Shown here piece after piece: positions 2,046-32,974 of a stretch of DNA of 33,787 nt. The stretch spans positions 1 through 33,787 of the forward strand of contig JADGQK010000026.1 of the NCBI GenBank assembly GCA_017881915.1. Reading direction: 5' to 3'. Both the position numbers and the translations under genes were made by a program. Below the pieces are notes generated by a model that saw nothing but the letters and a program-made list of their open reading frames with translations, made no database searches and was not told the origin of the DNA. The stretch is from Chloroflexota bacterium (GTDB lineage Bacteria; Chloroflexota; Limnocylindria; Limnocylindrales; CSP1-4). Position 1 is the first letter of the stretch; the number at the start of each line of letters is the position of its first letter.

Positions 2046-2121
2046 TGGCGCGCCCGACAGGATTCGAACCTGCGACCTTCGGCTCCGGAGGCCGACGCTC
2101 TATCCACTGAGCTACAGGCGC
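2046..2121 (-). tRNA. tRNA-Arg (anticodon CCG)
   Basis: A full cloverleaf reads on the minus strand. The acceptor GCGCCTG pairs with CGGGCGC, the D arm is agctcagtggatagagc, and the anticodon stem TCGGC/GCCGA encloses loop CTCCGGA with anticodon CCG. The T arm is GCAGG-TTCGAAT-CCTGT, with discriminator G and an encoded CCA at 2046-2048. It decodes CGG, a common arginine codon in this GC-rich sequence. It is convergent with the lipoprotein that ends 9 nt away. Confidence 0.97.
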
Positions 2122-11156: not shown

Positions 11157-11233
11157 GGACCCGTGGTGTAGCGGCCCAACATGCCAGCCTGTCACGCTGG
11201 AGATCGCCGGTTCGAATCCGGTCGGGTCCGCCA
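11157..11233 (+). tRNA. tRNA-Asp (anticodon GTC)
   Basis: A complete cloverleaf: acceptor GGACCCG/CGGGTCC, anticodon stem CCAGC/GCTGG around loop CTGTCAC (anticodon GTC), T arm GCCGG-TTCGAAT-CCGGT, discriminator G and encoded CCA. A TATCCT hexamer (11138-11143) upstream is a plausible -10. An intrinsic terminator follows at 11250. Confidence 0.97.
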
Positions 11234-28154: not shown

Positions 28155-29759
28155 GTGGATGCCCAGGAGATCCAGACGGCTGTTGCCCGTCAGGCCGCCG
28201 CGGCCGACGCAGCGACGCCGTTCGTCAACCGGCGCGACCCCGCCCGGCTCCTTGGACCTGATGGTCAGCCGGCGGTCAGCCGGCGGGCACCGATCTGGCA
28301 GGACGTCCCCGACGAGAAGTGGAACGACTGGCGCTGGCAGCTCAGCAATCGGGTCAACGACCTCGCCGAGATCGAGCAGATCCTGGAGTTGACCGACGAG
28401 GAGCGTGACGGACTGTCCGCCCCCGACAAGTTCCGGGTGGACATCACCCCGTACTTCATCAGCCTGATCGATCCGCACGATCCGGACGATCCAATTCGCC
28501 GCCAGGTCATCCCACTCGGCCGCGAGCAGTCGGCCTTCACCGGGATGATGGAGGACTCGCTGGCCGAGGACCGCCACTCGCCCGTGCCGGGCCTGGTTCA
28601 CCGCTATCCCGATCGAGTCCTGATGCTGGTCACGACCCAGTGCGCGAGCTACTGCCGGTACTGCACCCGGAGCCGGATCGTCGGTGATGCGACGATGAAC
28701 TTCAACCGCAAGGAACACGAGGCGCAGCTCGACTACCTGCGCCGGACACCCCAGGTCCGCGACGTCCTGATCAGCGGTGGTGACGGCCTCACGCTCGCCC
28801 CGAAGCTGTTCGAGTCGATCCTGCGCGGCCTGCGCGAGATCCCGCATATCGAGATCATCCGGATCGGTTCACGAGTCCCCGTCTTCCTGCCCCAGCGGAT
28901 CGACGACGAGCTGTGCGCGATGCTCGAGAAATACCATCCGCTCTGGATCAACCTCCATTTCAACCACCCCAACGAGATCACGCCCGAAGTCAGCCGGGCC
29001 GTCGACAAGCTCACTCGGGCCGGGCTGCCGGTCGGCAACCAGTCGGTCCTGCTGGCCGGCGTGAACGATTGCGTCCACATCCAGCGCGCGCTCGTCCACA
29101 AGCTCGTGGAGAACCGGATCAGGCCGTACTACCTCTACCAGTGCGACCTTGTCGAGGGCTCGGGCCACTTTCGGACACCGGTCGGCAAGGGCCTGGAGAT
29201 CATGGAAGGGTTGCGTGGTCACACGAGCGGCTACGCGATCCCGACCTACGTGATCGATGCGCCCGGCGGCGGCGGCAAGATTCCGGTGATGCCCAATTAC
29301 CTGATCAGCTACTCCGACCACAAGGTCGTGCTGCGCAACTACGAGGGCTACATCACGACCTACGAGGAGCCGCCGACCTACCGCCAGCACGATCGGGCCG
29401 CCTGCTCGTACTGCCAGAATGAGCGTTCGGAGCCGGGTCAGTCGGGCATCCTCGGGCTGCTCGAGGGCGAACGGATGTGGATCGAGCCGAAGGGCTTCAA
29501 CGAGATCCACACCCGCGGCAATACCGAGGCGCACCGCCTCCAGGATCCCGCCAAGTGGGTCCCCCTTGGCATTGGCGCGATCGAAGGCAGCGCCGACACT
29601 TCGCTACGCGTCCTTGATTCCGGGGAGGGTGCCCGGGCCGAGGTCAGTGCTGCGGCCGAAGGCACGGCCCTCCAACCCGCGCCGACCTATGGGCCGGGTG
29701 AGGAACCACGACCGCGCGATGGCGAGCCAACTGGGTCGGCCCACGGCGAGCTCCTCTAG
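28155..29759 (+). CDS. kamA: Lysine 2,3-aminomutase (radical SAM/PLP)
   Basis: A 534-aa enzyme converting L-lysine to L-beta-lysine with a 4Fe-4S cluster, SAM and PLP. The cluster motif is CASYCRYC (Cys163/167/170). The PLP lysine is Lys375 in PGGGGKIPVMPNYL. Asp331 (YQCDLVEGSGHFRTPV) and Asp368 (YVIDAPGGGG) match the two aspartates that bind the substrate's side-chain amine in the clostridial enzyme, favouring lysine over glutamate. QSVLLAGVNDCVHI carries the conserved structural Cys. It is about 115 residues longer than typical enzymes, mostly at the C-terminus (after about 440), where the tail becomes Ala/Gly/Pro-rich. GTG 28155 follows aggagg (28142-28147). No beta-lysine acetyltransferase (ablB) is adjacent, so the product's fate is unknown. 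Confidence 0.94.
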   Translation: MDAQEIQTAVARQAAAADAATPFVNRRDPARLLGPDGQPAVSRRAPIWQDVPDEKWNDWRWQLSNRVNDLAEIEQILELTDEERDGLSAPDKFRVDITPYFISLIDPHDPDDPIRRQVIPLGREQSAFTGMMEDSLAEDRHSPVPGLVHRYPDRVLMLVTTQCASYCRYCTRSRIVGDATMNFNRKEHEAQLDYLRRTPQVRDVLISGGDGLTLAPKLFESILRGLREIPHIEIIRIGSRVPVFLPQRIDDELCAMLEKYHPLWINLHFNHPNEITPEVSRAVDKLTRAGLPVGNQSVLLAGVNDCVHIQRALVHKLVENRIRPYYLYQCDLVEGSGHFRTPVGKGLEIMEGLRGHTSGYAIPTYVIDAPGGGGKIPVMPNYLISYSDHKVVLRNYEGYITTYEEPPTYRQHDRAACSYCQNERSEPGQSGILGLLEGERMWIEPKGFNEIHTRGNTEAHRLQDPAKWVPLGIGAIEGSADTSLRVLDSGEGARAEVSAAAEGTALQPAPTYGPGEEPRPRDGEPTGSAHGELL

Positions 29760-29778: not shown

Positions 29779-31275
29779 TCAGGGCCCGCTGAGGACCGAT
29801 ACGCCCTTGAGCAGCTGAGCATCGCCCGAGGCCGCCAGCTGGGCCGCTGTCATTTTGGCCAGGTCGGTCGGTGCAACGATCTTGCCCTTGGGCGTCGAGT
29901 CGAGCGAGATGTCGGGCTGGATCCCCAGCTTCCAGATCTGGCGGCCGTCGCGCGTGAGCCACTCGATCGTACCGACGAGGAGGGCCGAGCCGTCAGTCAA
30001 CGGGAACTGCTGGAGGACCGTCCCGGTTCCGAACGTCTTGGCCCCGATCAGTGTTCCGCGCCTGGCATCCTGGAGGGCGCCCGCCACGATCTCGGCCGAG
30101 CTGGCCGTGCCGTTGTCGACAAGGACGGCCAGTGGGAGGTCCGGGTCAGCGCCGCCTGACTTGATCGGGACCTCCTTGACCGAGCCAGTTCGATCCTGTT
30201 CGCGGTAGACGTCGCCGTCCTTGAGGAACTGGCTGGCCACGCCTACGGCTTCATCGACGTAGCCACCCGGATTGCCCCGCAGGTCGAGGATCAACGATTT
30301 CGCCCCGGCCTTCCGAGCGGCCGCAATGATCGTGACGAGCTGGCTGGTTGCATTACTGGCGAACTCATCGATGCGGACGTCGGCAACCTTGGTGCCTGGG
30401 ACCATCGACCAGCTGACCGATGGCACATCGACCTTCGCCCGGACGATCTTGACGTCGATCGCGGCAGCTGCGCCCGGATGCAGGATCGACAGGGTCACGG
30501 TCGTGCCGGCGTCACCGCGGATTCGCGAGACGACCGTATCAATGCTCTGACCATCGGTCGATGTGCCATCGACGCTGAGGACCGTGTCCCCGCCGAGCAG
30601 GCCGGCCTTCTCGGCTGGGCTGCTCGGGATCACCGACTGGATGACTGGAGCACCATTGACCGTGCTCATCTCGGCTCCGATGCCGACGACAGAACCACTC
30701 AGTGACGTGTTCTCGTTGGCGAGGTCCTGGGGCGTCAGGAAGCGAGTGTGATCGGTGTCGCCCACGGCGCTGAGGAGCCCGCTGATCGAACCATAGGTCA
30801 GGGTCGTCGGGTCGAGCGCCTTGGGGTCGACGTACTTGTCGTGGAGGATCTGCCAGGCTTGCTCGTAGACGGCGAACTGAGGCGGGAAGGAGCTCGAGGG
30901 CTGGAGCAGGCTGGTCGAGCCACCCAGTTCGAGCCCCGACCCTTGCGACAGTCCGACTGCCCCACCGGCGGCGAAGGCGATCGCGACCACCAGGACGATC
31001 GCGAAGATGGCGCGCCCAGACAAGGCTCGGTCCCGCCGCGGACCGGCGCCTCGCCAGCCGGGCGGCGCCTGCCAGCCCTGCGGCGGCATCGGCGGTGCCT
31101 GCCAGCCGGGCGGACCCTGCCAGCCGGGCGGACCCTGCCAGCCCTGCGGCGGCATCGGCGGTGCCTGCCAGCCGGGCGGCCCCTGCCAGCCGGGCGGCGT
31201 CTCGGGCAAGACACCGGGACTGGTCGCGGGCAAGGAATCATGCGGAGAACCCGTGCCCTGCGGCGGAAGCGTCAT
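29779..31275 (-). CDS. S41 C-terminal-processing peptidase with cytosolic GWQ repeat tail, catalytic Lys position altered
   Basis: A 498-aa membrane-anchored protein. Residues 28-75 are PPGWQGPPGWQAPPMPPQGW-type repeats. A transmembrane helix follows (about 88-108, GRAIFAIVLVVAIAFAAGGAV). Outside lie a helical region, a PDZ domain (about 195-275, with SSPAEKAGLLGGDTVLSVDG) and the S41 core. Core motifs are SLILDLRGNPGGYVDEAV, LAVLVDNGTASSAEIVAGAL with the nucleophile Ser392 (TASSAE), and GAKTFGTGTVLQQFPL. In Prc/CtpA the general-base lysine is in FGKG; here that position is Thr417 (FGTG). Lys413 lies four residues earlier. It may be inactive or use a shifted base. The final segment WLTRDGRQIWKLGIQPDISL is typical. 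It is convergent with kamA. Confidence 0.9.
   Translation of the reverse strand: MTLPPQGTGSPHDSLPATSPGVLPETPPGWQGPPGWQAPPMPPQGWQGPPGWQGPPGWQAPPMPPQGWQAPPGWRGAGPRRDRALSGRAIFAIVLVVAIAFAAGGAVGLSQGSGLELGGSTSLLQPSSSFPPQFAVYEQAWQILHDKYVDPKALDPTTLTYGSISGLLSAVGDTDHTRFLTPQDLANENTSLSGSVVGIGAEMSTVNGAPVIQSVIPSSPAEKAGLLGGDTVLSVDGTSTDGQSIDTVVSRIRGDAGTTVTLSILHPGAAAAIDVKIVRAKVDVPSVSWSMVPGTKVADVRIDEFASNATSQLVTIIAAARKAGAKSLILDLRGNPGGYVDEAVGVASQFLKDGDVYREQDRTGSVKEVPIKSGGADPDLPLAVLVDNGTASSAEIVAGALQDARRGTLIGAKTFGTGTVLQQFPLTDGSALLVGTIEWLTRDGRQIWKLGIQPDISLDSTPKGKIVAPTDLAKMTAAQLAASGDAQLLKGVSVLSGP
31051..31202. repeat. 66-bp near-identical tandem repeat in the peptidase N-terminus
   Basis: Two 66-bp copies (31071-31136, 31137-31202), both starting gccagccctgcggcgg, are nearly identical apart from a base near position 44 and their last few bases. 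They encode 22 residues each of the Trp/Pro/Gly/Gln-rich cytosolic tail, and partial units flank them. Confidence 0.85.
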
Positions 31276-31964: not shown

Positions 31965-32119
31965 CCCCAGGATCGATCAGCGGTCCAGCCGGACCTCCTG
32001 TCGGCCCGTTCATCGGGCGTGTCCCGGGCGGATCGATCGGGATCGATCGTCGTCCGCCGATGCGCGTCGCTGACCCAACCCGCACGTCCTCCCCCGATCC
32101 CCACAGGAGCACTTCCGAC

Positions 32120-32974
32120 ATGAGCACGACCCCTGTCCTCGTCGATGCGGCCTGGGCCCTGGCCCACCTCGCCGACCCGGCCGTCCGCTTCGTCGAGGTC
32201 GATGTCGACACGACCTCGTTCGAGCAGAGTCACCTGCCCGGCGCCGTCGGCTGGAACTGGACGAGCCAGCTCGCCGATGGCATCCGTCGCGACATTGCCG
32301 GCCGGGACGATTTCTCGGCCTTGCTGTCGGCCGGTGGAATCGGCCCCGACACCACGATCGTGCTGTATGGCGACAACAACAACTGGTTCGCGGCGTGGGC
32401 GTATTGGCAGCTCAAGCTGTACAGCCACAAGGATGTTCGAATCCTCGACGGCGGTCGCAAGTACTGGCTCGATCATGGCCTGCCGGTCACGACCGACGAA
32501 GCTTCCTACCCGGCGACGGGCTACCGCCTGCCCGAGCCCGACTTCGCCCTGCGGGCGTTCCGCGACGACATCCTGCCTCGGCTGTCCGATGCCGAGCTCG
32601 TCCTCGTCGATGTCCGCTCGCCGGCCGAGTTCAGCGGTGAGCTGCTGGCGCCCCCCGGCCTGACCGAGACGGCCCAGCGAGCCGGCCACATCCCGGGTGC
32701 TGCATCGATCCCGTGGGCCCAGACCGTGCGCGAGGACGGCACGTTCAAGCGCCCGGACGAGCTGGCCGCCCTGTACGCCGCCAAGGGCGTGACCGGCGAC
32801 AAGGACATCATCGCCTACTGCCGGATCGGCGAGCGCTCTTCGCACACCTGGTTCGTCCTGCACGAGCTGCTGGGCTATCGTCGGGTCCGCAACTACGACG
32901 GCAGCTGGACCGAATGGGGCAGCATGGTCGGGGTGCCGATCGAGAAGACATTCGTGGCGAATCCGACGACCTGA
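32120..32974 (+). CDS. Two-domain thiosulfate/3-mercaptopyruvate sulfurtransferase (rhodanese)
   Basis: A 284-aa cytosolic enzyme with tandem rhodanese domains. The N-terminal (non-catalytic) domain has LVDAAWALAHLADPAVRFVEV, then HLPGAVGWNW and TTIVLYGDNNNWFAAWAYW. The C-terminal domain has LVLVDVRSPAEFSGE, GHIPGAASIPWAQTV and the active loop AYCRIGERSSHTW with catalytic Cys234. A CRIGERS loop fits thiosulfate sulfurtransferase, moving sulfane sulfur to cyanide or thiol acceptors. ATG 32120 follows aggag (32104-32108) at 11 nt and begins the family-typical MSTTPVLVDA. It stands alone between an unknown gene and a chorismate enzyme. Confidence 0.94.
   Translation: MSTTPVLVDAAWALAHLADPAVRFVEVDVDTTSFEQSHLPGAVGWNWTSQLADGIRRDIAGRDDFSALLSAGGIGPDTTIVLYGDNNNWFAAWAYWQLKLYSHKDVRILDGGRKYWLDHGLPVTTDEASYPATGYRLPEPDFALRAFRDDILPRLSDAELVLVDVRSPAEFSGELLAPPGLTETAQRAGHIPGAASIPWAQTVREDGTFKRPDELAALYAAKGVTGDKDIIAYCRIGERSSHTWFVLHELLGYRRVRNYDGSWTEWGSMVGVPIEKTFVANPTT

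Follow-up and report, generated by a model that had tools for sequence, protein, structure and literature searches.

An FGTG-type S41 PDZ-protease from Chloroflexota with a probable Ser-His dyad in place of the catalytic Ser-Lys pair

The 33,787-nucleotide stretch of Chloroflexota DNA analysed here (the window) encodes, at 29779..31275 on the minus strand, a 498-aa S41 PDZ-protease in which threonine stands at the place of the catalytic lysine, within an FGTG motif. We propose that this protein is most probably an active, PDZ-containing C-terminal processing protease (CTP) with a Ser392-His176 dyad in place of Ser-Lys(-Gln), a reading drawn from alignments and from comparison with characterized enzymes. 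It would function as a membrane-anchored, extracytoplasmic protease with the CTP fold; the dyad would substitute for the Ser-Lys(-Gln) machinery, Thr417 and Thr419 would probably orient His176, and the PDZ domain would still gate access and recognise C-termini, as in other CTPs.

The gene was assigned from its ORF together with domain and family profile matches. The protein matches Pfam Peptidase_S41 (3e-44) as well as PDZ, and scores 268.3 bits against the NCBIfam profile TIGR00225 'prc', for which the cut-off is 218.6. Domain searches place the PDZ domain at residues 198-277 (30445..30684, minus strand, as for all features of this gene) and the Peptidase_S41 core domain at residues 296-457 (29905..30390), while translation and alignment locate a DLRGNPGG motif, as found in active CTPs, at residues 331-338 (30262..30285). 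The hydrophobic segment AIFAIVLVVAIAFAAGGAVGL, recognised in the translation by eye only at about residues 89-109 (30949..31011), is predicted to be an N-terminal membrane segment. The N-terminal tail ahead of it carries PPGWQ/PPMPPQGW repeats, which tandem-repeat analysis resolved at 31053..31197 as a nearly exact tandem with a 66-bp unit, 2.2 copies and 96% match. No promoters or terminators above chance were found at the gene. An AlphaFold2 model of the protein (pLDDT 90.8) displays the CTP fold; its top matches are CtpA and active-state CtpB, and it scores better against active than against resting CtpB.

The initial annotation of this locus had described an intact nucleophile and a threonine at the catalytic lysine place, and aligning the protein residue by residue with P. 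aeruginosa CtpA and B. subtilis CtpB, two CTPs of solved structure, bears out both observations. Ser392 (30100..30102) is the nucleophile in a TASSAE motif, of the S-x-x-E form, and Thr417 (30025..30027) falls without a gap on the catalytic lysine (CtpB Lys334, CtpA Lys-327). In the same alignments Leu421 (30013..30015) falls on the conserved glutamine (CtpB Gln338, CtpA Gln-331), the third residue of the CtpB catalytic triad (PMC3808539); thus two catalytic-site residues are altered in this protease, not one. Leu421 had been overlooked in that annotation, as had His176 (30748..30750), which lies outside the interval 29988-30120 that it quoted. Judged by its sequence, with no lysine at Ser+25, the protein is a CTP homologue and not a Ser-Lys CTP. 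Among the papers searched, none describes a CTP in which the lysine is replaced in this way.

It had also been suggested that FGTG might be the mark of a whole subfamily and not an isolated mutation, and a count across the lineage confirms this. The DNA pattern for FGTGTV[L/F] is present in 51 of 301 Chloroflexota genomes from many families, with the reversed pattern, used as a control, matching in 3 genomes; wherever a protein was recovered at a matching Chloroflexota locus, it was an S41 protein that retained the serine. Among Actinomycetota, 15 of 149 genomes matched, and 13 of these matches (Rubrobacter marinus, the chosen centre, included) are true S41 genes, all with a GD.GHT motif. These counts are lower bounds, as the exact pattern skips variants such as YGTGTV and FGTGTL. 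The matches in Bacillota (7 of 119 genomes) and Pseudomonadota (2 of 120) were rejected because they fell by chance in unrelated genes or in another reading frame, and no FGTG S41 protein was found among the genomes sampled from these phyla. Thr417 and Ser392 are present in all 69 FGTG S41 domains that we collected, again from many families, a consistency beyond chance. In a tree calculated with the trait columns masked, a single clade within the CTP group (support 96) holds the FGTG proteins. The genome that contains the window has three S41 genes, of which the other two (L001 and L003) are Lys-type. One FGTG-type CTP (L117) comes from a MAG labelled Spirochaetia and groups with Chloroflexota sequences, a case of mis-binning or transfer. 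Four members (L102, L103, L104 and L105) have an altered stretch between the serine motif and FGTG (for example KVNRPEVHV), not the usual QDxxRAxxVG; the three of these that were checked belong to a single Chloroflexota family, f38.

The residues that set the subfamily apart were sought in an alignment of 204 S41 domains (69 FGTG, 132 Lys), which came to 55 FGTG proteins and 114 Lys-CTPs once near-duplicates were removed. We screened for columns at least 95% fixed in the FGTG proteins in which the fixed residue occurs in at most 35% of the Lys-CTPs. Of the well-filled columns, this screen returned only His176, Thr417, Thr419 (30019..30021) and Leu421; column 469 was also returned, but is filled in few Lys-CTPs. 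Histidine occupies position 176 in 54 of 54 FGTG proteins versus 29 of 112 Lys-CTPs, and the latter figure led us to reject it as a strict clade marker. It is the sole invariant histidine among the 55 non-redundant members, in which no lysine, tyrosine or cysteine is invariant.

His176 corresponds by count to His-84 of P. aeruginosa CtpA: in the 7rpq chain the histidine of DPHS is residue 51 and the nucleophile, Ser-302, is residue 269, an offset of 33. In the active state of CtpA, His-84 lies within hydrogen-bond distance of Lys-327, and the H84A mutant has lowered activity (PMC11021448); the H85A mutant of H. pylori CtpA is likewise impaired (PMC12749690). These observations place position 176 within the CTP active site, even in enzymes that use lysine.

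The same position is aligned with the base of the nisin resistance protein NSR, an S41 enzyme whose Ser236-His98 dyad is known from its structure and from alanine mutants. Thr263 and Asn265 of NSR hold His98, with Thr263 hydrogen-bonded to it, and the Thr263Ala mutant falls to 20% activity (PMC4698656). The lysine place is taken by Tyr261 in NSR, in which Ser+27 is Thr263 and Ser+29 is Asn265. A typed consensus probe was used to bring up the NSR entry, and for that purpose only; the NSR relatives in the profile alignment were fetched from plasmids. With the PDZ domain removed, the profile alignment to the NSR family has a probability of 99.4% (E 9e-22) and places His176 on the NSR histidine and Thr419 on the Thr263 column. 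The segment LGDRHSTFWDP of a Streptomyces relative lines up beside LGDTGHSRFLTP, and in the AlphaFold2 model His176 is flanked by the N-terminal helices and the cap helix, the arrangement reported for NSR. Other S41 families that have no catalytic lysine (L080/L081, L083b/L084b and the NSR relatives) also have histidine at this aligned place. One such type, from the same class, comprises L080 and L084 (G056 C24, ~71762-74429), L081 (G060) and L083 (G058), and has CHTYY ahead of the cap and TAGC or SIGC at the lysine place; in G056 and G058 its gene adjoins a second, PDZ-less S41 gene.

The column screen and the alignments to NSR and CtpA point to His176 as the base of the protease, and favour one of the options in the initial annotation, reliance on another base. 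A number of considerations weigh against the dyad. Histidine is found at this site in about a quarter of the Lys-CTPs, where it supports the lysine and does not replace it, and the invariance of His176 could reflect a supporting role only. The FGTG clade has one origin, and the association within it amounts to one evolutionary event, backed by the other Lys-less S41 families. Finally, Asn265, the second orienting residue of NSR, is leucine in the protease.

The initial annotation had also put forward Lys413 (30037..30039), which lies with Thr417 in GAKTFGTGTVLQ, four residues ahead of it. The window protein and its near relatives within the genus do have a lysine there, but the position is not conserved (T26, K16, R9, H2, P1, G1 in the 55 non-redundant FGTG members), and it is as often lysine in Lys-CTPs, which do not need it. 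Nor does another lysine take its place, the commonest lysine column of the clade reaching only about 45%, and no gap in the alignments to CtpA and CtpB shifts Lys413 onto the catalytic column. We consider a base at Lys413, or at any other lysine, scarcely credible. Alternatively, Thr417, or a water bound by Thr417 and Thr419, might activate Ser392 directly and leave His176 with a structural role only, a scheme with which the invariance of both threonines would agree. To our knowledge, a general-base role for threonine has not been established in serine proteases of this type. The simpler choice is an invariant histidine at a known CTP active-site position (PMC11021448, PMC4698656), and activation by threonine or water appears very unlikely.

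The remaining suggestion was that the protein is a pseudoprotease. Its fold and PDZ domain would then serve as a binding module or as a regulator of the two Lys paralogues, with no catalysis. This would fit the loss of both the lysine and the glutamine, which are catalytic in CtpB (PMC3808539), and the retention of two Lys-type S41 enzymes, L001 and L003, in the same genome. Against this, Ser392 is invariant in 55 of 55 non-redundant members despite switches between codon families (AGY in 51 genes, TCN in 18), which makes a pseudoprotease unlikely. His176, Thr417 and Thr419 are invariant as well, with all four threonine codons in use at Thr417, and the DLR..PGG motif is kept. Omega is 0.12-0.23 for same-genus FGTG copies and 0.16-0.23 for the genome's own Lys paralogue, so that the two are under similar purifying selection. 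A contrasting case is L085, a 477-aa PDZ-S41 paralogue from a genome of the same family (G019), in which the serine (GSIGEAE), the lysine (replaced by arginine) and the histidine have been lost together; L085 is likely to be a true pseudoprotease. We infer that the FGTG protease is an active Ser-His enzyme, and favour this over the pseudoprotease reading.

The history of the two active sites can be read in more than one way. The FGTG and Lys rows group together in the tree, apart from NSR and the other S41 rows (support 94). Constraining the Lys rows to one clade was not rejected (p-AU 0.83) and gave a higher score than the first tree search, so the FGTG clade may stand as sister group to the Lys-type CTPs as a whole and retain the older Ser-His chemistry of S41 enzymes; the outgroup is long-branched, which makes the rooting of the FGTG and Lys clades unsafe. 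On this tentative scenario, to which we give somewhat less than even weight, Ser-Lys-Gln would have arisen later and CtpA His-84 would be left over from the earlier base. The alternative is a later Lys-to-Thr change in an ancestor that already had the histidine. A Lys-type CTP from an Anaerolineae MAG (L119), with a GDEHT loop close to that of the FGTG clade and lysine for the glutamine (FGKGSVK), is a possible intermediate.

The genomic surroundings gave no operon or partner clue to function, and this line was rejected: no neighbour shared by the FGTG genes was found among 20 nearby genes in relatives (PPK2, ECH, PntB, IF3, parts of an oligopeptide ABC system and others). In the window, the protease gene faces an uncharacterised ORF and a convergent lysine 2,3-aminomutase-like gene (28155-29759, plus strand; TIGR03820, 551.9 bits, above the cut-off). 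No pathway can thus be named for the protease, and by default we regard it as an envelope protease of general function that would be gated by its PDZ domain. The window also encodes a two-domain rhodanese (32060-32974, plus strand), probably a thiosulfate or mercaptopyruvate sulfurtransferase, and tRNA-Arg(CCG) (2046-2121, minus strand) and tRNA-Asp(GTC) (11157-11233, plus strand).

Databases label the FGTG proteins as ordinary CTPs, though S41A is defined by a Ser-Lys dyad (as cited in PMC11021448). In part of two phyla, the mechanism, inhibitor profile and pH dependence assumed for these enzymes are therefore probably wrong. The subfamily shares the fold and the PDZ domain of other CTPs but probably has a different base, and so offers a way to test directly how the catalytic base of a protease can change. 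It also bears on the presence of an active-site histidine, of still debated role, in some Lys-type CtpA enzymes. If the sister-group reading is true, the FGTG clade would survive as an intermediate linking two S41 catalytic classes.

The tricorn core protease and CPAF, both of family S41, build their active sites on Ser-His, and the proposed Ser392-His176 site resembles theirs in having histidine, not lysine, as its base. Tricorn has a Ser-His-Ser-Glu tetrad; Glu437 (GTIEW) was considered by analogy as a third catalytic residue and rejected, since its column contains E/Q/H/L/V/I/R/D and no conserved glutamate is found at 437 in the subfamily. NSR shares with the protease the TASSAE motif, a histidine at the aligned place before the cap, threonine at Ser+27 and the lack of lysine at Ser+25. 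It differs in having no PDZ domain, in carrying Tyr261 and Asn265 where the protease has Thr417 and Leu421, so that only Thr263 of its His-holding pair is matched (by Thr419), and in its place in the tree, where the FGTG proteins fall with the CTPs. The S41A CTPs (B. subtilis CtpB, P. aeruginosa and H. pylori CtpA, D1 protease and E. coli Prc) have in common with the protease the N-terminal helices, the PDZ domain, the cap and core fold, the serine nucleophile and the DLR..PGG motif, and the protease scores above the TIGR00225 cut-off. In contrast to these enzymes, the protease has threonine for the catalytic lysine, leucine for the triad glutamine, a fixed His176, and a GD.GH[TS] loop one residue longer than their DPYS/DPHS.
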